Assembly: GCA_002868945.1 (NCBI GenBank)
Contig: PKTX01000069.1
Coordinates: 1 to 37,082, forward strand
Direction of reading: 5' to 3'
Origin: Desulfobulbaceae bacterium
Lineage (GTDB): Bacteria > Desulfobacterota > Desulfobulbia > Desulfobulbales > SURF-16
DNA length: 37,082 bases
The notes under the pieces: model-generated
Databases searched by the model: none
Seen by the model: only the letters and a program-made list of their open reading frames with translations
Told to the model about the DNA's origin: nothing
Shown here: one piece after another, positions 7,955 to 37,008 of the stretch
Position numbering within the stretch: position 1 is the stretch's first letter
Layout: the number at the start of each line of letters is the position of its first letter
Program-made: the position numbers and the translations under genes

Positions 7955-8462
7955 GTCAGGCCGCCTCTCTTTTTTTCAACTCATCTTCTCCACCGCTGAC
8001 TCAAACGGAAAAAATGCAAACAAAGGGGAAACTTCACGATAGTAACCAGGCTGAAAGTTGAGGCTTGAGAATCGACCGGCATCTGCGGCCCGATTGTCAT
8101 AGATACACGGAGGCCGACCGCCGCTCCGCAAAAGGATGAAGTGCCACCAGACAATATGTTATCATGGATGAACTATTGAGATTGCCGCAAGGCAGCCAGT
8201 AGAATAAAGACCTTCTTGAAGAAGTGCTGTTTCGGAGTATCGCTTCGCTCGCGTACCTGCCCGTTTATTTTCGTGGCTACGAAATAAAAATGCGCACATA
8301 TGCTCCGCTGTTTATTTTTTTAGGGTATCTTGATGGTCTGCTAAAAAATCCATTCAGGTAATGGCTGAGCACAAATCGTCAGCAGTGAAGCAGTTGACGT
8401 CTTTCTGCGACGCCACCAATTTTTCGAACACAATACCTGCAAAGAGTACAAAGGAGTTCAAC
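7955..8462. other. Intergenic region between tetR and the AsnC-type gene
   Basis: Divergent spacer. It holds a repeat copy (8208-8339). Bases 7955-8207 show no frame with a recognisable product and no RNA fold I can support. A TTGACG box near 8395 could be the -35 of the downstream gene, but no good -10 box follows it. Confidence 0.5.
8208..8339 (+). repeat. MITE-like repeat, family 1, copy A (degenerate)
   Basis: A 132-base element bounded by AGACC and GGTCT. It shares the block TGCTGTTTCGGAGTATCGC, a CGTGGCTACGAAATAAAAAT segment, CACATATGCTCCG and a GGTATCTTGA end with the better-preserved copies at 24525-24690 and 30590-30735. No coding capacity; presumably a non-autonomous element mobilised in trans. 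Confidence 0.6.
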
Positions 8463-8738
8463 ATGGTGACATCTATTATCCTTCTCAACATCAAGCGATC
8501 AAAAGTCAATGAGGTGGCGGAACAACTGGCGGACATGGAAGGCATTTCCGAGGTCTATTCGGTAAGCGGCAACTATGACCTGGTGGCCATTGCCCGGGTA
8601 CCGGCCAACGACGACCTGGCCACCCTGGTTACCAACAAGCTGCACAGCATTGACGCCATCGTCAAATCGGAAACCATGCTTGCCTTCAAGGCCTTTTCCC
8701 GCCATAACCTGGAAGCCATGTTCAACCTCGGCATGTAG
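8463..8738 (+). CDS. Stand-alone Lrp/AsnC ligand-binding (RAM) domain protein
   Basis: A 91-residue protein made of a single alpha-beta RAM domain as found in the C-terminal half of Lrp/AsnC regulators: VTSIILLNIKRSKVNEVAEQL, the EVYSVSGNYDLVAIARV strand pair, and a final helix and strand with KSETMLAFKAFSR. No DNA-binding helix-turn-helix is present. The ATG at 8463 has AAGGAG five bases upstream; an upstream in-frame ATG at 8361 lacks a ribosome site. Such single-domain proteins assemble into rings and bind amino acids or partner regulators. A strong hairpin follows the stop, so it is probably monocistronic. Confidence 0.85.
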   Translation: MVTSIILLNIKRSKVNEVAEQLADMEGISEVYSVSGNYDLVAIARVPANDDLATLVTNKLHSIDAIVKSETMLAFKAFSRHNLEAMFNLGM

Positions 8739-8770
8739 AGCAGGCCGCCGCCTCTCCTCTTTACTCACCC

Positions 8771-8810
8771 CCTCTGCCTGACGGAACGCGGCCGCTCCGC
8801 CAGGCAGAGG
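8771..8810 (+). terminator. Hairpin terminator of the AsnC-type gene
   Basis: Stem CCTCTGCCTG-A-CGGA paired with TCCG-C-CAGGCAGAGG around a 10-base GC-rich loop, 32 bases after the stop codon. The downstream run is only weakly T-rich (GCTTTCCCC), so termination efficiency is uncertain, but the stem is very stable. Confidence 0.6.
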
Positions 8811-9213
8811 AGCTTTCCCCGCCTTGCCTCTCCCGTTTTTTTGCCCACACAACCTCCCGACTTGACCTATCATTCCGTCATGGCGTGACAATTTCGTCCT
8901 GCAATACACTGTTGCCCTTCCGGATAGGTGTGCACAGCAGAAGAGGGATCCACCCGGCGGAATTGTGATTCAGCTGACGCCTTACACCTCCCACCTCACC
9001 CACTTGGACGCTTTCACAAACTCAAAAAACTTTCCCGGCTAAGCATGGCAAATAACGGCGGAAAATCTCCCGCCTGCCGCCATGCCCGGCCATGCGTGCA
9101 TGATCCGTTTGATATGACACCGTAAAACCGCCATACTGAGACAAGAGCCCCGCTCCTGGCTGCTCTTCCGCACCGCCATTTTTTTCCCAAACCTTCTCAA
9201 AAGGAGAAGCGCC
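8811..9213. other. Leader region of the ORP-like operon
   Basis: About 400 bases with no recognisable gene between the terminator at 8771-8810 and the zinc-ribbon gene. Several short GC hairpins occur, such as GGCGG/CCGCC near 9056-9075. The only sigma-54-like spacing (GG at 9158-9159 and GC at 9170-9171, ten bases between) matches the consensus poorly. No sigma-70 promoter stands out. Confidence 0.4.
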
Positions 9214-9399
9214 ATGTCAACGCAGAGGAAATTCAAGTGCAGTGACTGTCAATTTGAATGGGAGGCCCCCCATGGCTCCGGCCAGACCGGCCGAGAGATG
9301 GTCTGCCCGAAATGCGGCAGCAAAAACATCCACCGGACAGACAGCGGCGGCGCCGGACGCGGCAGAGGTTGTGGGCCGGGCGGCTGTCGCAGGCCATAG
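9214..9399 (+). CDS. Small zinc-ribbon protein with Gly/Arg/Cys tail
   Basis: A 61-residue protein with two CxxC knuckles, Cys9-Cys12 (CSDC) and Cys31-Cys34 (CPKC), forming a rubredoxin/zinc-ribbon type metal site, and a C-terminal tail rich in Gly and Arg with two more Cys (GRGCGPGGCRRP). AAGGAG lies seven bases before the ATG. It starts the operon of NifX-like and MinD-like genes, 14 bases before the next gene. The glycine-rich tail resembles that of the following NifX-like protein. Function is unknown; a metal-binding or redox accessory role to the complex is inferred from position only. Confidence 0.8.
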   Translation: MSTQRKFKCSDCQFEWEAPHGSGQTGREMVCPKCGSKNIHRTDSGGAGRGRGCGPGGCRRP

Positions 9400-9413: not shown

Positions 9414-9842
9414 ATGAAACTTTGTATTACATGCGCCGGCAAAGACAAGGAGGCCGCCATTGACACCGCCTTTGGCAGGGCCCCTTACTTTTTCATTATC
9501 GACACCAACACCAATTCCGAGGAGATTGTTGCCAACAGCGCTGTCGACCAAGACCATGGCGCCGGCATTGCTGCCGCCCAACTCCTGGCCGACCGTGGCG
9601 TGGACGCAGTGCTCACCGGCCAGGTGGGCCCCAACACCTTTGCCGCCCTCCAGGCTGCCGGCATAAAGCTCTTTGTCGGAGCCTCCTCCGGGGACACGGT
9701 GAACCAGGCCCTGGCCAAATTCAAGACCGATCACTACCAGGAGGCCAACAACCCATCAACAGCCCCGCATTGCGGACCCGGCCCGGGCAGAGGCCAGGGA
9801 CACGGCAGGGGGCAAGGCAGAGGGCGATGCCGACAGAAATAA
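9414..9842 (+). CDS. NifX/NifB-C-like (orange-protein family) metal-cluster-binding protein
   Basis: The 142-residue protein belongs to the dinitrogenase iron-molybdenum cofactor family: an RNase H-like fold with a start strand KLCITCAGKD, AAIDTAFGRAPYFFIID, the HGAGIAAAQLLADRGVDAVLTGQ region and ALQAAGIKLFVGA. Members bind Mo/Fe or Mo-Cu clusters; the Desulfovibrio orange protein ORP is one. The C-terminal ~25 residues are a Gly/Arg/His/Cys-rich tail common in anaerobe paralogs. GAGGGAG upstream supports the ATG at 9414 rather than the longer frame from 9258, which overlaps the zinc-ribbon gene. It overlaps the next ATPase gene by 16 bases. No nitrogenase genes are nearby, so a nitrogenase role is unlikely. 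Confidence 0.88.
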   Translation: MKLCITCAGKDKEAAIDTAFGRAPYFFIIDTNTNSEEIVANSAVDQDHGAGIAAAQLLADRGVDAVLTGQVGPNTFAALQAAGIKLFVGASSGDTVNQALAKFKTDHYQEANNPSTAPHCGPGPGRGQGHGRGQGRGRCRQK

Positions 9843-10771
9843 ACCGGCAGCTGCCCCCTGAGATACTGGCAGCCTATCATGCCAAGCCATTTGCCGTGCC
9901 GCTCATCGGCGTGACCGGCGGCAAGGGCGGCGTCGGCAAAACCACGGTGGCCGTCAATCTGGCCTGCGCCCTGGCGGACATGGGGCTCCGCGTCGCCTTG
10001 GCCGATGCGGATGTGGATGGCCCCAATGCCGCCCTGCTCCTGGGCCTGCCCCTGGAGAATCCTCGCGATGTCTGCATGTCCATCCCCCTGGTTGAGGCGG
10101 CCAAATGCACCTCATGCGGAGCCTGCGTCAAGGCCTGTCGACTCAACGCCCTCTTTCTCCCCAAAGGGAAGGCGCCCATCCTGCTCGGAGCCTGCAACGG
10201 CTGCCAGGCCTGTTTCCTGGTCTGTGAACCCCAAGCCCTGCACCGCGGCCACAAGACCATAGGCACAACCTCTATCACCCGCCGCCCGCAACTGTCCCTC
10301 TACTCCGGGGAACTCATGCCCTCCCAGGAAGAAAGCGCCCTGGTGGTGCAGGAGGTCAAGCATCTCCTCTTTCAGGAGGCGGAGAAGTATGACATCCTCG
10401 TGGTCGACACCTCGCCCGGCGCCCATTGTGACGTGATCAAGGCCCTGCAGGGTGCTGATCTGGTCATCACGGTCACCGAGCCCACGCCGCTGGCCAGCCA
10501 TGACTTTGAGCTGATTCTCCAGCTCCTCGATATCTTTGCCCTGAAGGGCGTTGCCTTTCTCAACCGCAGCAATCTGCCCTCTTCCCAGAAGAAGATCCGG
10601 CAGATTGCCCGGCAACACCACATTCCCTTTGCCGCGGAAATGAAAATGGACGACCACCTTGTCGCCAGCTATGTGGCAGGCAGGCCGCTGGTCACCATGT
10701 TCCCGGAAGAGACCGCCGCCAAGACATTTGTGCGGCTGGCCCGGGACCTGACTCGGGAGTATCTGTCATGA
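9827..10771 (+). CDS. MinD-superfamily ATPase with inserted 2[4Fe-4S] ferredoxin domain (first)
   Basis: A 314-residue P-loop ATPase. The deviant Walker A GGKGGVGKTT is at residues 31-40. A ferredoxin-like insert follows, with Cys94-97-100-104 (CTSCGACVKAC) and Cys123-126-129-133 (CNGCQACFLVC), enough for two [4Fe-4S] clusters. The Walker B and switch region DILVVDTSPGAHCDV and the TVTEPTPLASHD motif follow. The ATG at 9827 is preferred over one at 9770 because the latter lies deep within the NifX-like gene. Gene pairs of this type form part of the Desulfovibrio ORP complex and are restricted to anaerobes. It overlaps the second ATPase by four bases. Confidence 0.9.
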   Translation: MPTEINRQLPPEILAAYHAKPFAVPLIGVTGGKGGVGKTTVAVNLACALADMGLRVALADADVDGPNAALLLGLPLENPRDVCMSIPLVEAAKCTSCGACVKACRLNALFLPKGKAPILLGACNGCQACFLVCEPQALHRGHKTIGTTSITRRPQLSLYSGELMPSQEESALVVQEVKHLLFQEAEKYDILVVDTSPGAHCDVIKALQGADLVITVTEPTPLASHDFELILQLLDIFALKGVAFLNRSNLPSSQKKIRQIARQHHIPFAAEMKMDDHLVASYVAGRPLVTMFPEETAAKTFVRLARDLTREYLS

Positions 10772-11658
10772 AAGAGGTGGTCGTCATCAGCGGCAAGGGC
10801 GGTGTCGGCAAATCATCCATCACCGCGGCACTGGCCTCGCTCCTCTTGACCGAGAAACAGCGCATCGTTCTGGCCGACACAGACGTGGATGCCCCCAACC
10901 TCAATCTTGTCCTGGGAGCTCGCCTCGACACCTCTGAAGAGATTGCCGCATCGGCCAAGGCCTTTATCGATCCGGACAAATGCATGGCGTGCATGGCCTG
11001 CATGGATGTCTGCCGCTTTTCAGCCATCATCGGCACCGATCACCCCATTATCGTCAACTATGCCTGTGAGGGCTGCGGGGCGTGCGGCCTGGTCTGCCCC
11101 GAGGAGGCTATCAGTATTCACGAAGTGGTCAATGGCCGGCTCAACACCATGCGTGCCGGCAACATGCTTCTGGTGGCCGGCGCACTCATGGTGGGGGCGA
11201 GCAGCTCCGGCCGACTGGTGGACATGGTAAAGAAAAGAGCCCGCCGAGAGGCGGAACAATGCCGGGCCGACCTGATCCTCACCGACGGCCCGCCCGGCAT
11301 CGGCTGCCCGGTCATTGCCGCGATCAAGGGAGCTGATTATGTGGTCCTGATAACAGAGCCTACTCCGGCCGCCCTCCATGATCTACGGCGCGTCATCGAC
11401 GTGGTTCGCCACTTCATGACGCCTTTAGGCCTTGTCATCAACCGGGCGGATCTGCATGCCCCATCCCAACGCACTATCCGCGACTTTGCCCTGGCCAACG
11501 ATTACGCCCTGCTGGGCACCATCCCCTCTGACCAGAACATGACCCGGGCCCTGGAGCAGGGCCGATCCGTGGTGGTCGCCTATCCGGAAACTCCGGCCGC
11601 GCTGGCCCTGCGGGCGGTGGCCGGAGCACTGGCGGCCCACCTTACCGCCCTGCCATGA
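10768..11658 (+). CDS. MinD-superfamily ATPase with inserted 2[4Fe-4S] ferredoxin domain (second)
   Basis: A 296-residue paralog of the preceding gene, coupled to it by an ATGA overlap. Walker A is SGKGGVGKSS at residues 8-17; the ferredoxin insert has Cys72-75-78-82 (CMACMACMDVC) and Cys100-103-106-110 (CEGCGACGLVC); LILTDGPPGIGCPV is the Walker B and switch region. Both cluster motifs are complete. Tandem, non-identical copies suggest a heterodimeric ATPase, as MinD-type enzymes act as dimers sandwiching ATP. In Desulfovibrio the equivalent pair was reported to interact with the orange protein; the same partnership here is inference from gene order. Confidence 0.9.
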   Translation: MKEVVVISGKGGVGKSSITAALASLLLTEKQRIVLADTDVDAPNLNLVLGARLDTSEEIAASAKAFIDPDKCMACMACMDVCRFSAIIGTDHPIIVNYACEGCGACGLVCPEEAISIHEVVNGRLNTMRAGNMLLVAGALMVGASSSGRLVDMVKKRARREAEQCRADLILTDGPPGIGCPVIAAIKGADYVVLITEPTPAALHDLRRVIDVVRHFMTPLGLVINRADLHAPSQRTIRDFALANDYALLGTIPSDQNMTRALEQGRSVVVAYPETPAALALRAVAGALAAHLTALP

Positions 11659-11683: not shown

Positions 11684-12874
11684 ATGGACCCTTCCCAAAA
11701 AACAGCCTGGCTGTCCATTGCCACCAATATGCTGCTGGTGGCCATCAAAACCAGTATTGCCCTTATCTCCGGCAGCCTGGCCGTGGCAGCGGACGCCATC
11801 CACTCCCTCTCCGACGTGGTCTCCTCGGCCATTATCCTGCTCGGCATCAAGATCGCCGACCGGCCGGCCCGCGGCTTCCCCTACGGCCTCTACAAGGTGG
11901 AAAACCTGGTGGCCATGGGCACCTCAATCCTCATCCTCTTTGCCGGTTATGAGATCATCAAGACCGTCTTTGGCGGGGGCGGGCCGGCCATTCCCCGGCA
12001 GCTGCCTCTGGCCATCACCGGCGTCTCGCTGACCATTGTCATCACCTGGCTCTTTTCCAGGTATGAACTGAAAAAAGGCCATGAAACCGGCTCCCCCAGC
12101 CTGATTGCCGATGCCCGCCATATCTGGTCCGACATGCTCTCCTCCCTGGTGATCCTGACGGCGCTGCTCGGCAGCGCCCTGGGTCTGGCCATTGACAAGT
12201 ATGCCGCCGTCATCGTGGTCTTTTTCATTGCTCGCTCCGCTATCATCATTCTGCTTGACTCTGTCCGGGTCCTGCTGGACGCCTCCCTCAACTACCAGAG
12301 CCTCACCCGCATCAGGGAAATCGTCCTGGCCGACACGCGGGTGGCGGCGATCAACAATATCTGGGCCCGGAATGCCGGCCGCTATAAATTTGTCGAGCTT
12401 GATCTGATCCTGCGGGTCAAGGAGCTGGAAAAGGGCCACCAGGTCGCCAAGGAGATTGAAAATCGGGTAAAGAGGGAGCTCGGCCAGGTGGATCGCGTCC
12501 TCATCCATGCCCAACCCCGGCAGGGGGAACTGCTCACCATGGCCATTCCCCTCAACCCGGATCAGGAGACCATCTCAGACCATTTCGGTGAGGCGCCTTT
12601 TTTCCGCCTCGTGCGGCTGCAGCGCCGCAGCGGCCATATTGTCGAGGAAGAGCTGCTGGCCAATCCATACCTTGAGGAAGAAAAGGCCAAGGGCATCAAG
12701 GTGGCCAAGTGGCTCCTGGAAAAAGGCCTTGAGGTGCTGATCTCCCGCCATGATCAGGCGGACAAGGGCCCTGGTTTTGTCCTTGGCAACGGCGGCGCCG
12801 AGATTCTGGTCACCGAAGAAAAGAGCGCCTCTAGGGCGCTGAATCAAGCAGGCAAAGTCAACAGCAGCACATAG
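11684..12874 (+). CDS. Cation diffusion facilitator fused to a NifX-type domain
   Basis: The 396-residue protein is a CDF metal/proton antiporter with six helices over residues ~8-210. Its transport site reads as His40-x3-Asp44 (IHSLSD, helix 2) and His146-x3-Asp150 (RHIWSD, helix 5), the HD-HD set typical of Zn-type members. A ZT-dimer cytoplasmic domain follows (~213-280). From residue ~283 a second cytoplasmic domain of the NifX/ORP family follows (MAIPLNP, SDHFGEAPFFRLV, GIKVAKWLLEKGLEVLI, KGPGFVLGNGGAEIL). The start ATG at 11684 has only a weak ribosome site (TAAAGA). It lies between the MinD-type pair and mrp in one operon. The NifX part may sense or receive the transported metal. Confidence 0.9.
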   Translation: MDPSQKTAWLSIATNMLLVAIKTSIALISGSLAVAADAIHSLSDVVSSAIILLGIKIADRPARGFPYGLYKVENLVAMGTSILILFAGYEIIKTVFGGGGPAIPRQLPLAITGVSLTIVITWLFSRYELKKGHETGSPSLIADARHIWSDMLSSLVILTALLGSALGLAIDKYAAVIVVFFIARSAIIILLDSVRVLLDASLNYQSLTRIREIVLADTRVAAINNIWARNAGRYKFVELDLILRVKELEKGHQVAKEIENRVKRELGQVDRVLIHAQPRQGELLTMAIPLNPDQETISDHFGEAPFFRLVRLQRRSGHIVEEELLANPYLEEEKAKGIKVAKWLLEKGLEVLISRHDQADKGPGFVLGNGGAEILVTEEKSASRALNQAGKVNSST

Positions 12875-12884
12875 AGAGGAGGAG

Positions 12885-13922
12885 ATGATGGAGAAGCAAG
12901 AGATCCGCCAGGCCCTGCAGGGTGTTCTGCATCCCAAGCTGCACAAAAGTCTGATTGAGCTGGGCTTGATCCGTGATATTGCCGTCAGTGATGGAGTGGT
13001 TTCCCTGACCCTGGCCTTAAAGAGCAGGCGCGCCCCTCTGCAGAAAGAGCTGACTGCGGCCATTACCGAGGCGCTGACGCCTCTGGCCGGGGTCACCGCC
13101 GTCCAGGTAGAGATCGCCGCCCTGGAGCCGGCCGAGGCGGAGCGCTTATTTCCCAGCCCCCCCTTGAAAGGTATTGAAAAGGTAAAACATTTTCTGGCGG
13201 TGGCCAGCGGCAAGGGTGGCGTGGGCAAGACCACCATTGCCGTTAATGTGGCCCTGGCCCTGGCCAGGCAGGGCTGCAAGGTCGGCCTTCTCGATGCCGA
13301 CATCTATGGCCCCAGCGTGCCGTTGATGCTGGGCCTCACCAAGGCGGTGGAGCAGGAGGATGAGATGATCATCCCCGCAGAGAAGTATGGCCTGCGCATC
13401 ATGTCCCTGGGCATGACGGCCGGCCAGGATGCCGCCTTTATCTGGCGCGGGCCCCTGGTCGCCAAGATGATCAACCAACTACTGGACCGAGTGCGCTGGG
13501 GGGAGCTCGACTATCTGGTCATCGATCTGCCGCCCGGCACCGGTGATCCCTCCATCACCATTGCCAAGGCCCTGCCCCACTGCCGCATCCTCATGGTGAC
13601 CACTACCCAGGAGATCGCCTTGGCCGATGTGCGCCGCGCCATCAACCTCTTTAACAAGAGCGGCCGGACCATTTGCGGCCTGGTGGAAAACATGTCCTAT
13701 TTCCTCTGTGAGCACTCGGACAAACCCATTGAAATCTTCGGCCACGGCGGCGGCGAACAGCTCAGCAAGGAGACCAACCTGCCGCTGCTTGCTGCCATTC
13801 CGCTGGACCTGACCATCCGCCAGGGCGGCGATAGCGGCGTACCGATCATGGAGTCGGCGCCCGACTCGGCCACGGCCGCTGTTTTTGCGGCCATTGCCGA
13901 AAAAATAACAGCCCGTGCCTGA
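12885..13922 (+). CDS. mrp: Mrp/ApbC-family Fe-S cluster carrier ATPase
   Basis: A 345-residue protein with an N-terminal MIP18/DUF59 domain (residues ~5-85) and a NBP35/Mrp ATPase: Walker A SGKGGVGKTT at 108-117, DADIYGPSVPLMLGL, FIWRGPLVAKMINQLL, LVIDLPPGTGDPS. Family members bind and transfer [4Fe-4S] clusters via a CxxC near the C-terminus. Here that motif reads Cys275-Glu-His-Ser278, so the second cysteine is absent. GAGAGGAGG precedes two adjacent ATGs (12885 and 12888); either may be used. It is the last gene of the ORP-like operon, and the adjacent ABC-F gene is convergent, 17 bases away. Cytoplasmic. Confidence 0.92.
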   Translation: MMEKQEIRQALQGVLHPKLHKSLIELGLIRDIAVSDGVVSLTLALKSRRAPLQKELTAAITEALTPLAGVTAVQVEIAALEPAEAERLFPSPPLKGIEKVKHFLAVASGKGGVGKTTIAVNVALALARQGCKVGLLDADIYGPSVPLMLGLTKAVEQEDEMIIPAEKYGLRIMSLGMTAGQDAAFIWRGPLVAKMINQLLDRVRWGELDYLVIDLPPGTGDPSITIAKALPHCRILMVTTTQEIALADVRRAINLFNKSGRTICGLVENMSYFLCEHSDKPIEIFGHGGGEQLSKETNLPLLAAIPLDLTIRQGGDSGVPIMESAPDSATAAVFAAIAEKITARA

Positions 13923-30017: not shown

Positions 30018-30572
30018 TCAGTTTTGCAAAATGATTTTCAGGCCAATACCGATCAAAACAAGGCCGCCTAAGATTTCAAACCTGCCTCCCCACATAGTGC
30101 CGATTCTTCGACCAAGCAGCATACCGGCGACAGTCAATATGGCAGTAATGATGCCGATAATTATTGCCGGAGTCCAGATCGTAATCCCAATCATGGACAA
30201 GGAAAAACCAACAGCTAAGGCGTCTATGCTCGTGGCAATGGAGAGCAGGACCATGGTCATCCCTTTCGTTGGATCTCGCCTCTCCCTCGTTTCTTCATGG
30301 TCTGCAACTGCTTCATAAATCATCTTGCCGCCCACAAAGGTAAGCAGCATGAAAGCTATCCATGGGGCAAAGAGCGTAACAAATTGCCGAAGACCGATTC
30401 CGCTAAGCCAGCCGATAATCGGCATGCCTCCCTGAAACAGACCAAAATGAAATCCGAGTCGAAACAACTGTCTTCTGGTAATCGGATCAAGAAGGACACC
30501 GGCACCCAGGGCCACAGCAAAGGCATCCATGGCAAGGGCTATGGCTATACCGGTTAATGACAGGAAATCCAT
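30018..30572 (-). CDS. mntP: Manganese exporter MntP
   Basis: The 184-residue inner-membrane protein has six helices and the MntP duplicated motif: ALAMDAFAVALGAG with Asp16, and SIATSIDALAVGFSLS in the second half; the aspartates are needed for Mn2+ efflux in the E. coli protein. The ATG at 30572 follows AAGG at eight bases; the frame remains open into the adjacent repeat to 30707, but that stretch is clearly element DNA. A family-1 repeat starts 17 bases upstream of the start codon, so the promoter must lie in or beyond it, and no yybP-ykoY-type riboswitch is evident there. Confidence 0.92.
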   Translation of the reverse strand: MDFLSLTGIAIALAMDAFAVALGAGVLLDPITRRQLFRLGFHFGLFQGGMPIIGWLSGIGLRQFVTLFAPWIAFMLLTFVGGKMIYEAVADHEETRERRDPTKGMTMVLLSIATSIDALAVGFSLSMIGITIWTPAIIIGIITAILTVAGMLLGRRIGTMWGGRFEILGGLVLIGIGLKIILQN

Positions 30573-30589
30573 TTTCTCAACCTTCAGAC

Positions 30590-30735
30590 GGGTATCTTGA
30601 ATTATGAGATTTTTTGTTCGAGTTTGAGAAGCATAGAAAATAAAAACCGCAGCATATCGAGCATATGTGAGGATTTTTATTTTCGTAGCGACGAAAAAAT
30701 CGGACAAAAAAGCAATTATTCAAGATGGCCAGACT
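30590..30735 (-). repeat. MITE-like repeat, family 1, copy C (inverted)
   Basis: Read on the minus strand it runs from CTGGCCATCTTGAATAATTG to ATAATTCAAGATACCCG, matching copy B for most of its length (TTTTTTCGTCGCTACGAAAA, CACATATGCTCGATATGCTG, TTCTCAAACTCGAACAA) but lacking the TTTCGGAGTCTCGC segment. It lies between the divergent genes mntP and tex. Confidence 0.75.
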
Positions 30736-33279: not shown

Positions 33280-34077
33280 TCAAGCGCTTGGTTGGAATTC
33301 CATTTTCAATTCCTTTCTAATTTGGGTCCATTTCTTTGTTAATGAAGAGTTGAGTTCGTTAAAAACTTTCGTTGATAAAAGTAACCCTGCTGAAGATTTG
33401 GCCGACTCATAAGCAACAAAGCTATCAAGAACCGTTGCAATGGCCCGTGGAGATTCCGCACCAATATCGTGCAAAAAATGTGTATGAAGGCGGTCATATG
33501 TTCTTTCATGCCTCAACCGTAGGACTTCTAAGTTCAACCACTGAGCAATAATTTCCCCGGAAAATATAACCTGCGTTATCCAGGTGAGAATTTCTAAATT
33601 ATTATGTCGTAATGAAAATGCCAACAGCCATATAACCGCATAACCTCCCGTAAATGTACGTTTTTTGTGTAGCATTTTTTCCGCAACTTCTTTGCTGAAA
33701 AATGAGTTCTCCATGGTGTTAGCACCAAGGCGTTGTAATGAAGGAGTATAGTCATTGTTGTAATACAAAGAGGTTTTATCATGACACAGAGGAGTGCCAA
33801 AAGCATCTGACAGCATTTGCTTTCTACGCATCCTCTCAGCCTTGGGTACTAAATAGAATCTAGATATTTGTGAAATGGAGAAGTATAAAATGACTGATAC
33901 GATGAAGCTTGATTGCAAAGAGCATTTTACTAACTCACCAAAATTTGAATAGTATGGCATGCATAGGGACAGAATAGAAATTAGCCAGAATAGCCATGCC
34001 GCAAGCTTTTCAAATTTAACAGCTGGTTCGTAGTATTGTGCGACCTCATCAATTCTGTTTTCTATTGTATTGGTCAT
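33280..34077 (-). CDS. S-4TM family membrane effector (CBASS)
   Basis: The 265-residue protein has two pairs of membrane helices, ~26-45 and ~52-73, then ~146-162 and ~167-188, with a cytosolic middle segment (RRKQMLSDAFGTPL, YYNNDYTPSLQRLGANTMEN, SFFSKEVAEKML) that matches the S-4TM family (SMODS-associated 4TM, PF18159). These are predicted pore-forming effectors that respond to a cyclic nucleotide and kill or arrest the infected cell. The gene overlaps the CD-NTase gene by four bases (ATGA), placing it as the partner effector. The DNA is AT-rich compared with tex and its other neighbours, in keeping with recent transfer. The exact ligand is unknown. Confidence 0.85.
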   Translation of the reverse strand: MTNTIENRIDEVAQYYEPAVKFEKLAAWLFWLISILSLCMPYYSNFGELVKCSLQSSFIVSVILYFSISQISRFYLVPKAERMRRKQMLSDAFGTPLCHDKTSLYYNNDYTPSLQRLGANTMENSFFSKEVAEKMLHKKRTFTGGYAVIWLLAFSLRHNNLEILTWITQVIFSGEIIAQWLNLEVLRLRHERTYDRLHTHFLHDIGAESPRAIATVLDSFVAYESAKSSAGLLLSTKVFNELNSSLTKKWTQIRKELKMEFQPSA

Positions 34078-34859
34078 AACGCAGGGACTATTTTCTTGAT
34101 TTCAGCTTCAGCCGTAGCCGGCATTCCATCATTTTCATACTGTTTTGCATTTTCTGCATATTTTTTAGCCCTTACTACTCTATCTTTGGTGTTTTGAGAA
34201 CTCTCATATGAACAGTTAAAGTCATTCCAAAAGGCATAGAAATAGTCTCTTAGAGTAGTGCATGACCAAAAGCATTTTCCGACAATATATTCCTCAATTG
34301 AAAACGATGTAAAAAGATGACCTTGCGTCGCATTCCAATATTTAATAAGACGCACTAAAGGTTTGATCTGATAGTTCTCTGCTTTGTTTTTGTCCTGAAT
34401 TGCTTGGTTTGCGCCTGATGGATTTGTAGCTACCCATTCCTGCCATGACGATGCTGGAGAGGGAATTTGATAACCATAACTATAAATGGCTGGTACTAAT
34501 TCAAACTTGATATGATTTAGGGACAGCACTATCGTCGGGCTTGATTGGGATATTTCAGAAGTCGAATATTTTGCCGCGGCAAACCTTCTCAACCGGTCAA
34601 GATAGGTCTGAGGTTTCTTTTGCCCATCAGAAGTGTCAAAAACAATCATATAGTCAATGTCTGAGTTACTATCAGCCTTTCTCGGTAAGATTGTCCCACG
34701 AGTGTTTGAACCAAATTGAAAATGGCTGGTTATATTATTTCCAAAATATGCATCGAGTCTTGAAGACAATGTTGTGATAGATCTGGAGATATCCGTTTTT
34801 TCAGTTTCAGAAAGAACAAGGCTACTTGCCGTTGTTGTAAGATGAGTACTTACTGTCAT
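34074..34859 (-). CDS. CD-NTase (SMODS nucleotidyltransferase) of CBASS
   Basis: The 261-residue enzyme has the polymerase-beta-like core: the FGSNTRGT motif with Gly50-Ser51, Asp67-x-Asp69 in NSDIDYMIVF, and a third acidic residue Glu120 in IKFELVPAI, so the catalytic triad is complete. A C-terminal helical domain follows (QIKPLVRLIKYWN). Such enzymes make cyclic di- or trinucleotides on phage infection. AAGGAG precedes the ATG by four bases. The sensor and E1/JAB genes lie upstream on the same strand, beyond a 327-base gap with its own promoter candidate, so the enzyme may be expressed apart from them. Product and clade cannot be assigned from sequence by eye. Confidence 0.92.
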   Translation of the reverse strand: MTVSTHLTTTASSLVLSETEKTDISRSITTLSSRLDAYFGNNITSHFQFGSNTRGTILPRKADSNSDIDYMIVFDTSDGQKKPQTYLDRLRRFAAAKYSTSEISQSSPTIVLSLNHIKFELVPAIYSYGYQIPSPASSWQEWVATNPSGANQAIQDKNKAENYQIKPLVRLIKYWNATQGHLFTSFSIEEYIVGKCFWSCTTLRDYFYAFWNDFNCSYESSQNTKDRVVRAKKYAENAKQYENDGMPATAEAEIKKIVPAL

Positions 34860-34908
34860 TTTTTCTCCTTATGCTTTGCAACATGGTGCTATACAACACG
34901 GGCTAATC

Positions 34909-34936
34909 GGTATAGGCTGCGTGCAGCATATCCCAA
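34909..34936 (-). promoter_or_regulatory. Possible promoter of the CD-NTase/S-4TM pair
   Basis: TTGGGA and TATACC, each four of six matches to the sigma-70 consensus, spaced by 16 bases and about 50 bases before the CD-NTase start. Chance matches of this quality are common in AT-rich DNA. Confidence 0.3.
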
Positions 34937-35104
34937 TCGGGCCCGTCTGCGTAATATTTTTATGGATGCTAATATGTTGATAACATTTGAATATCTTTAA
35001 TGGAAGCCCAAAAGTCAATTGGCAATCTTAACCGTTTTGCAGAAAGCGCAGGTTAACATTATTCCTGAAAAGACATGGTCAGATGTGACACTCACAGCAG
35101 GAAC

Positions 35105-35145
35105 CTCAACCTAGGGTGAGGTGAAAAATTCCTGTAGTTGGATGT
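35105..35145 (-). repeat. CBASS-flanking repeat, copy 2
   Basis: Counterpart of 33168-33208 in the same orientation, 34 of 41 positions identical. It lies about 40 bases beyond the JAB gene stop, so each gene pair of the locus is followed by one copy. Confidence 0.6.
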
Positions 35146-35186
35146 AATAATTATGTCCACAATTTTAAGAATTGCAGATTAAAATT

Positions 35187-35675
35187 TTACCCATAAACCT
35201 TTATGCTCATCTCTATATAATTAGGCACTCTACAGAACAAAAAATCCCTATCAGAGTAACGCCAAATTGAGAACTCAGCAGGTTCACTACATGCAAGAAC
35301 AGCCATGATTGGTTGAGCAATTCTTGCCTCTGTATGTCTTGCAATTCGCCGCAAGGTTCTTTTGTCCTTACGACTTAATAAAGTTTTCCCAAGCGGGTGA
35401 GTGTGCCAGTCACCAAGATAGGTATCGAGCTGCCCCGACTCTCTATAGATTTTAGCTATTTGTTGTTCCTGAAAAGTAACGTCCGGAATATATCCGCAAG
35501 GTTTATGTACAGCATTTGGTCCAGGACCTATAACATTGGTCACCACAAGATCTTGACCATCCTTAGCCTGGTAGCCCATAAAAATACCACCAGTTTCATT
35601 TGGAAACTTGTCCTGTGCTTCCATTAACAACTCTTCAAAAGCTACCTCAGCAATCCAACAGTTGTCCTTAATCAT
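35187..35675 (-). CDS. cap3: JAB/MPN-type isopeptidase (Cap3-like) of CBASS
   Basis: The 162-residue protein has the JAMM metalloprotease signature: Glu27 in NETGGIFMGY, then His91-x-His93-Pro and Ser101, Asp104 in HTHPLGKTLLSRKD. Prokaryotic JAB enzymes of type II CBASS (Cap3) cleave the CD-NTase from proteins to which Cap2 has linked it. The start overlaps the E1 gene by eight bases, so the two are coupled. No membrane segments. Related JAB proteins also occur with other ubiquitin-like systems, but the adjacent CD-NTase gene favours CBASS. Confidence 0.88.
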   Translation of the reverse strand: MIKDNCWIAEVAFEELLMEAQDKFPNETGGIFMGYQAKDGQDLVVTNVIGPGPNAVHKPCGYIPDVTFQEQQIAKIYRESGQLDTYLGDWHTHPLGKTLLSRKDKRTLRRIARHTEARIAQPIMAVLACSEPAEFSIWRYSDRDFLFCRVPNYIEMSIKVYG

Positions 35676-37008
35676 TAGCGCATCGACAGTCTGGGTGTGG
35701 GTCTATTTTAAAAGTTGCCCAAGTATGAGGAATTGGAGAACCATCTCCATCTCGAAGATGAAGAACAGACAAATCCCAGGGCAAAGCAGGATAGCCGCCT
35801 TCATTATCTTGGGTCAGGGTCGACACTGCAGCCCTTACTCCTTCAAGAGCTATCTGTTGAGCATCGAACCCTGCACCGACATATGTAACATCGCCGCAAC
35901 CTTTTGGCTGAACAAAGCCACTTTCATCTGCTGGAGGCCTCATTTTTTTATTTTTTGCAAAAAAATGTCTGTAGCACCCCCAACAACCGGCAGTGCTTTG
36001 AGGAGAAATTCTAATTACAATTCCACCCCAAGCGCCTTGAGTCGTCGAAATCCCCACATAGGGGATTTTTTGAGCTGCTGCCAAATCTGAAAGTAAATGT
36101 TGAAGGCCTAGTTCTGTTGTTGCATCGTAAATCATATCAACATCTTTAAGAATATCTCTTAAAACAGCAAGATCCGTATTTTCCTTTTTTGCAGCTAGAC
36201 TTGTTATCCCAAGCCTATGGACAACATCTCTCGCCTTTGTGTAGGGATAGTTTTTACGAATAAATTTTGCAAGATGAACAACTTTAAGTTGCCCGGCCGC
36301 GTCCATACCAAATGGCCATCGAACTGCCGTACCGGGGTCAAAAAAATCGTGATCAAGCATTCGAATTTCTCCAACACCGCACCGGGCAAATTCCAAGATA
36401 CTTGGAGCCCCTAAGCAACCGGCACCAAAAACAGCAATTTTTTTCTGTTGCAGGAGATCAAAAAAAGGTACACGATGAGCCATGTCGACACGACCAGCAT
36501 ACACTGGGCGTACCAAAGCGTTATGTTCTTGATGATTCTTATTGACCTTTTGAAGGTGTCTCATCAGAAATACCCAGCCATCTTGTTTTTTTCGTAAAGA
36601 ATATTCTTCCGGAAAAACGACACCAACCATGGTCATTGACGTTTTGTCGTTCACCTTGGTCTTGCGTGTTTTGTGAAGGAAGGGATTTTCAGATTTAATA
36701 GTTCGCCAAAATAAACTCGGGTCATCAGTATTTACAGGTGAACCTCGCCTTACCCATTTCCCTTCAAGCGTGCAAATAAATTTATTTTGAGAACACTCTT
36801 CATCGTTTTCAGCTAGAGTATTTTTATCACCATCGAGTATACGCAAAAGGGTAAATACATTTTTACCATTATTTCTCATATACCCGACATGGAGATAACC
36901 ACATTCTGCATCAGAAGGAATAGTCATCGCGCTATTGGTTAAAACAATAGCATCAGGTTGATACGTATAATAATCCCCAAAGGGCCAGCTATTCCCGGCG
37001 AACCCCGC
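35668..37008 (-). CDS. cap2: E1-type (ThiF-fold) Cap2-like protein, N-terminally truncated
   Basis: From the first ATG at 36927 the product has 419 residues. Residues ~163-380 form an E1/ThiF adenylation domain: GAGCLG (168-173), LDHDFFDPG, a CWGC pair (Cys315, Cys318), GCGDVTYVGAGFD with Cys344 as candidate catalytic cysteine, and a C-terminal HPDCRC pair for zinc. Upstream lies a MVGVVFPEEYSLR, QDGWVFL linker seen in Cap2 proteins. No E2 domain with its catalytic cysteine is recognisable. The frame stays open without a ribosome site to a TAA at 37009-37011, where base composition shifts, so the ATG is probably not native and the E2 part seems lost or separate. Cap2 normally conjugates the CD-NTase to target molecules. 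Confidence 0.75.
   Translation of the reverse strand, partial: AGFAGNSWPFGDYYTYQPDAIVLTNSAMTIPSDAECGYLHVGYMRNNGKNVFTLLRILDGDKNTLAENDEECSQNKFICTLEGKWVRRGSPVNTDDPSLFWRTIKSENPFLHKTRKTKVNDKTSMTMVGVVFPEEYSLRKKQDGWVFLMRHLQKVNKNHQEHNALVRPVYAGRVDMAHRVPFFDLLQQKKIAVFGAGCLGAPSILEFARCGVGEIRMLDHDFFDPGTAVRWPFGMDAAGQLKVVHLAKFIRKNYPYTKARDVVHRLGITSLAAKKENTDLAVLRDILKDVDMIYDATTELGLQHLLSDLAAAQKIPYVGISTTQGAWGGIVIRISPQSTAGCWGCYRHFFAKNKKMRPPADESGFVQPKGCGDVTYVGAGFDAQQIALEGVRAAVSTLTQDNEGGYPALPWDLSVLHLRDGDGSPIPHTWATFKIDPHPDCRCAND

Follow-up and report, generated by a model that had tools for sequence, protein, structure and literature searches.

In the 37,082-nucleotide stretch of Desulfobulbaceae DNA analysed here, hereafter the window, one gene on the + strand (11684 to 12874) encodes a CDF transporter fused to a C-terminal NifX-type domain. 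The fusion is genuine: the open reading frame was confirmed from the ATG at 11684 to the stop codon ending at 12874, and specifies 396 amino acids, none of which is a cysteine. The CDF transmembrane domain (residues 9-198, 11708 to 12277; Pfam Cation_efflux, E 5e-34) is followed by a cytoplasmic ZT-dimer domain (residues 207-278, 12302 to 12517; ZT_dimer, E 5e-11) and by a C-terminal region, residues 281-396 (12524 to 12871), whose complete NifX fold takes up about residues 283-394, assigned from a Nitro_FeMo-Co match to residues 293-356 (E 1.8e-9) together with a model of the tail. All three matches exceed the curated Pfam cut-offs, and, taken as sequence alone, the fusion is a commonplace case of domain shuffling that is already picked up by Pfam. 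A search of the open-access literature found neither a paper that describes a CDF-NifX fusion nor an experiment with any of its members. We tentatively propose, as a reading that is possible rather than probable, that the protein exports Zn2+ or Fe2+ and that its NifX domain, using His300, would bind a metal-sulfur cluster (or the metal of one) and would read out or dock ORP/Mrp proteins.

The C-terminal domain

NifX, NafY and the C-terminal domain of NifB (IPR003731) share a fold and an HFG motif with a cluster-ligand histidine. In NifX, H35 holds NifB-co, and in NafY, H121 of the same motif holds FeMo-co (PMC13128457, PMC8496260). The tail of the window protein scored 38.2 bits against Nitro_FeMo-Co (PF02579; gathering cut-off 26.3) in a match that spans only positions 1-61 of the 94 in the Pfam model, and the predicted structure shows the entire fold. 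All 35 tails that were scanned (that of the window and those of 34 relatives) matched Nitro_FeMo-Co, at E 0.01 or better, and no second family. The model of the isolated tail (pLDDT 93.2, pTM 0.86) matched the solved structures of TM1816 (1o13, Z 15.8), D. gigas ORP (2wfb, Z 14.6), the NafY core (1p90, Z 13.2) and NifX of the NifEN-NifX complex (9ian_F, Z 11.8) over 104-109 residues, the next, unrelated entries having a Z of about 7. The first-pass annotation had placed a NifX/ORP-family domain after the ZT-dimer domain and had asked whether structural prediction would reduce the tail to an extended ZT-dimer. Since the tail-only model matches ORP, NafY-core and NifX structures, it does not; Pfam, the predicted fold and the structure search together rule out the extended ZT-dimer.

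Within an alignment of 85 fusions, N327 is invariant (85/85), and P328 (83/85), G337 (83/85) and H300 (82/85) are nearly so; the tails have one strongly conserved histidine, no conserved cysteine and few conserved acidic residues. His300 belongs to the sequence His300-Phe301-Gly302 (12581 to 12589, + strand). Because the NifX of the same genome aligns through its DEHFG both with NifX H35 and with the SDHFG of the tail, His300 can be placed at the position of NifX H35, the counterpart of NafY H121. Free NifX proteins encoded beside fusions vary at this position (R in 11, H in 9, V in 4, T in 3, A in 2, S in 2, besides further residues), so that the tails do not keep His300 simply because the fold comes with it. 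Given this conserved HFG histidine, it is plausible that the tail binds a cluster or a metal, as judged by the likeness to NifX and NafY. The tail differs from the NifX, NafY and NifB domains in being fused to a membrane transporter and in forming its own clade with NP...KG...GKGP motifs, and the window copy is free of cysteine. Another contig of the same genome (C68; L008, L012) encodes two NifB-like proteins, of 429 and 378 amino acids, each with a C-terminal NifX domain.

The transporter

CDF metal/H+ exporters such as YiiP/FieF, ZnT and MamB/MamM share with the fusion a six-helix transporter, a quartet of residues in TM2 and TM5, and a ZT-dimer domain. The window protein belongs to the CDF family by TIGR01297 (174.3 bits, cut-off 82.35) and PF01545 (118 bits, cut-off 26.6). 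An AlphaFold2 model of the full-length protein, built on 85 fusion sequences (pLDDT 82.7), resembles YiiP and ZnT transporters, with YiiP 8f6h and 8f6e as the best Foldseek matches (E about 1e-14). None of the NCBIfam CDF equivalog cut-offs was reached (MamB, MamM, MntE, FieF, Cdf31, ZitB, DmeF), the best score being 148.5 bits against the 350 required for MamB. The transporter had been described as complete, and this holds: His40/Asp44 in TM2 and His146/Asp150 in TM5 both align with the A-site quartet. The H-D/H-D arrangement is found in 63/85 fusions, H-D/E-H in 10/85, a group drawn mostly from Chloroflexota, and H-D/D-D in 8/85, all from the window's own order. The loci with D/D or E/H in place of H/D in TM5 fall in two groups (L019-L026; and L014, L015, L096, L104, L107, L109, L110, L112, L114 and L117), in which the ion carried or the coupling may differ from that of the H/D fusions.

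Eight CDF clades share the HD-HD quartet, which is a poor guide to the metal carried (PMC5703985), and for this reason a metal identity based on the quartet was dropped. As HD-HD is common in zinc exporters yet also occurs elsewhere (PMC5703985), zinc is a first guess only, with iron second. From the CDF family we infer export as the direction of transport and a homodimer as the active form, and metal/H+ antiport is likewise to be expected. The fusion differs from YiiP-type CDFs in its additional NifX domain of 115 residues and in having GLYK where YiiP has GHGK. This replacement is seen in nearly all fusions, and the fusion CDFs are therefore a distinct type. Within the ZT-dimer domain His252 is kept in 62/85 fusions and His275 in 74/85, but the rest of the usual site has not been retained; by alignment with the YiiP ligands, we take these two histidines to belong to the YiiP regulatory site.

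This partial site bears on whether the NifX domain might be a plain metal sensor, which would bind the transported ion itself via His300 and its neighbours, replace or add to the site in the cytoplasmic domain, and open the exporter at high free metal. The loss of the other positions beside the two retained histidines fits such a role, as does the presence of ZnuABC-like uptake genes adjoining the fusion at four loci (L079, L093, L100, L103), and CDF cytoplasmic domains are established as regulatory modules that bind metal (PMC7441159). However, one strongly conserved histidine with no conserved cysteine and few conserved acidic residues makes a poor site for tight binding of a divalent ion, and in this family the HFG motif is the one that provides a cluster ligand. 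We regard the sensor as unlikely.

Distribution and origin of the fusion

Relatives were collected by scanning one genome per species, which gave 349 candidates, of which the best 80 were kept. The tail lies in the same open reading frame in 78 of these best 80 (one of the 78 being partial at a contig end); of the other two, one stops at a contig end ahead of the tail and one is split. In the split case (L084:8734-9960, Parasporobacterium) the CDF and the tail occupy two open reading frames, which may be a split gene, a frameshift or a true two-gene version. The relatives form a widespread family, and with hundreds of relatives among the candidates a one-off fusion or an error of contig assembly is ruled out. 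Plasmid records yielded no relative that covered the tail. Judged by the titles of the records, which often denote metagenome bins, the fusion occurs in Desulfobacterota, Bacillota, Chloroflexota, Poribacteria, Aminicenantota, Planctomycetota, Caldisericota, Pseudomonadota, ANME-1 and Methanothrix, and within the window's phylum a match was obtained in 56 of the 297 genomes sampled. In a quick tree of the CDF part, a branch with a support of 98 sets all 85 fusions apart from the 18 unfused CDFs, which are all from the window's order. By this tree the fusions are one old clade, widespread in anaerobes, that extends across several bacterial phyla and archaea. Their function may nonetheless differ between clades, since His300 has disappeared from some fusions, and some carry D/D or E/H in TM5.

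Three genomes of the same genus have the ABC-F gene that lies beside the operon at 86-89% identity, and the contig therefore fits its genome; a foreign contig was set aside on this identity, though the synteny around ABC-F is not kept. The fusion is absent from the three same-genus genomes searched, and their ORP ATPases reach no more than about 31% identity. The nearest relatives of the fusion (among the best 80 of 349) are mostly Desulfobulbales, for example Desulforhopalus, at 70-77%, which suggests, though it does not prove, horizontal transfer; the operon may have been acquired here or lost in the other genomes.

The operon and the linkage to ORP-type genes

The ORP complex of Desulfovibrio comprises a similar set of proteins to those encoded around the fusion, and there it is Mrp that bears a second NifX domain (PMC6345978). 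In the window, the putative operon on the + strand begins with a 61-amino-acid protein with zinc-ribbon-like CxxC pairs (9214 to 9399), which matched no NCBIfam family and has homologues in the same place at L043, L044 and L077. It is followed by a free ORP of the NifX fold (9414 to 9842; Nitro_FeMo-Co E 1e-23, D. gigas ORP 2wfb E 5e-19) and by two MinD/Mrp-type ATPases with inserted 4Fe-4S motifs, ORP ATPase 1 (9827 to 10771) and ORP ATPase 2 (10768 to 11658), the start of the latter overlapping the preceding stop. Downstream of the fusion lies an Mrp/ApbC Fe-S carrier (12885 to 13922), in which Pfam finds an N-terminal FeS_assembly_P domain and none of the NifX type, in keeping with the earlier statement that this Mrp has no NifX domain. 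The genes are tightly spaced and co-directional, several neighbours overlapping or lying no more than about 25 bases apart, as in an operon. The free ORP, the two ferredoxin-type ATPases and Mrp are all present between 9414 and 13922, and by this gene set the operon is of the Desulfovibrio type. A scan for a Desulfovibrio-like sigma54 promoter did not rise above the chance level: with up to three mismatches to the consensus it gave 148 matches compared with 197 in shuffled sequences, none of the 148 in 8726-9231 and none on the + strand before 9461.

The free ORP ends in a cationic Gly/Arg-rich tail (GPGPGRGQGHGRGQGRGRCRQK), as do the operon ORPs of L043, L044, L050, L057 and L077. A NifX-fold protein with a Gly-rich cationic tail is also known in IssA, the thioferrate storage protein of Pyrococcus furiosus (PMC5524996), but IssA is without a transporter, and the likeness concerns the ORP neighbour and not the CDF tail. 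Elsewhere in the window are an Lrp/AsnC ligand-binding domain that stands alone, with no DNA-binding domain recognised (8361-8738), a putative manganese efflux pump of the MntP type (30018-30707) and, on the minus strand, a SMODS nucleotidyltransferase with a ThiF/E1-like protein (34074-36927), resembling a CBASS anti-phage locus.

Functional linkage between the fusion and the ORP system had been proposed, and the relatives support it across phyla. Genes for ORP-type ATPases, Mrp or NifX proteins were found within 1.5 kb at 34/80 fusion loci and at 0/18 loci of ordinary CDFs, a contrast that is strong but is not a formal probability, since the control set covers fewer taxa and the fusions do not count as independent of one another. 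Among ORP-type neighbours within 9 kb, 89 of 98 are on the strand of the fusion. On the other hand, 40/80 fusion loci are without an ORP-type gene within 6 kb, some of them owing to short contigs, and the NifX tail thus cannot require an ORP operon everywhere. A radical SAM protein also recurs among the neighbours (15 loci), as do NifU-like proteins (5), DUF134 (5) and Fur-type regulators (4); together with the uptake genes mentioned above, they indicate Fe-S or Zn/Fe homeostasis.

The gene order also raises the idea of a tether, in which the NifX domain would contact the free ORP or the ATPases and bring the cluster machinery to the membrane, with metal binding secondary. The fusion lies within an ORP-type operon not only in the window but also at the five loci whose ORPs carry the cationic tail, and MrpORP_CT is predominantly dimeric on elution (PMC6345978). 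A tether would leave unexplained both the near-universal His300 and the many fusions located away from ORP genes, and it seems to us rather improbable.

Relation to MrpORP and other NifX fusions

MrpORP of Desulfovibrio (Orp9, DVU2109) likewise has an HFG-type NifX domain fused to a protein of the ORP cluster, near a His-less free ORP. This domain binds a [3Fe-4S] cluster and has the motif CxHFGHCE (PMC6345978). It differs from CDF-NifX in its partner, which is the Mrp ATPase, in the cysteines of its motif, in its separate clade and in that both can occur in one genome. The CxHFGHCE motif is absent from the window tail, which reads SDHFGEAP and has no cysteine, and a single histidine in such a tail may be a weak cluster site by comparison.

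The first-pass annotation had interpreted the two fusions as a swap of the domain, attached to Mrp in one case and to the transporter in the other. This did not survive: in a tree of NifX domains, which are short and give moderate support, the CDF tails and the MrpORP domains fall in separate groups, and MrpORP and CDF-NifX occur together in at least 22 of the 56 fusion genomes (297 sampled), where about 14 would be expected by chance (Fisher p 0.009, uncorrected for relatedness). As both occur together, the two do not replace each other, and on the strength of tree and co-occurrence the swap was rejected. In three genomes (G138, G204, G309) MrpORP and a distant CDF-NifX are encoded 4-7 kb apart on one strand. 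What is useful in the idea is the parallel of a His-less free ORP with a fused HFG domain. Free ORPs beside MrpORP genes have RFG in 14/14 cases and MrpORP domains have HFG in 25/25, although the two were separated by the HFGH motif itself, MrpORP being also recognised by its fusion to, or place directly after, Mrp; D. gigas ORP has RFG and the window's free ORP has AFG. From these counts, ORP gene clusters tend to pair a single free ORP that lacks the His with a single HFG domain that is fused, either to Mrp or to a CDF. In the magnetosome island of Desulfovibrio magneticus RS-1, FmpB (DMR_41100) has a NifX/NifB domain and a locus tag next to that of the CDF mamB (DMR_41110; PMC4287615), but there the domain sits on a magnetochrome/PDZ protein and not on the CDF.

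Proposed function

It was also proposed, in the first-pass annotation, that the tail passes metal to the transport site. NifX and NafY are indeed carriers that hand on their cargo (PMC13128457, PMC8496260). A large cluster cannot cross a CDF, however, so that cargo and substrate would have to differ. CDFs such as YiiP need no chaperone to take up the free divalent ions of the cytosol, and a chaperone-fed exporter is, in our judgement, very improbable. Because a cluster is too large for the CDF, any cluster bound by the tail would be a signal or a docking cargo and not the export substrate, and a sensing or docking role is favoured over loading. In a more direct form of gating, the CDF would be opened or closed by a metal-sulfur cluster bound to its NifX domain, and metal export would track the condition of cluster assembly; such an old regulatory device, common to anaerobic bacteria and archaea, appears doubtful.

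In the exporter that we tentatively favour, the CDF homodimer would export a divalent metal against protons, with the NifX domain placed in the cytoplasm after the dimerisation domain. His300 of the HFG motif would bind a metal-sulfur cluster, or its metal, by analogy with NifX and NafY, and the loaded domain would read out, or dock with, the cluster-handling ORP/Mrp proteins of the same operon. Export of competing or surplus Zn2+ or Fe2+ might thereby be matched to cluster assembly; this gating or docking, like the metal itself, is argued from known relatives.

If the tail does bind clusters, the fusion would couple a metal exporter to cluster biogenesis. It would then offer a handle on the role of the ORP/MrpORP gene clusters in anaerobes, and on how anaerobes protect the assembly of Fe-S and Mo-Cu-S clusters against poisoning by Zn2+ or other ions. 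Given the breadth of the family, which spans several bacterial phyla as well as ANME-1 and Methanothrix, the biochemistry of one member would bear on many unstudied genes.
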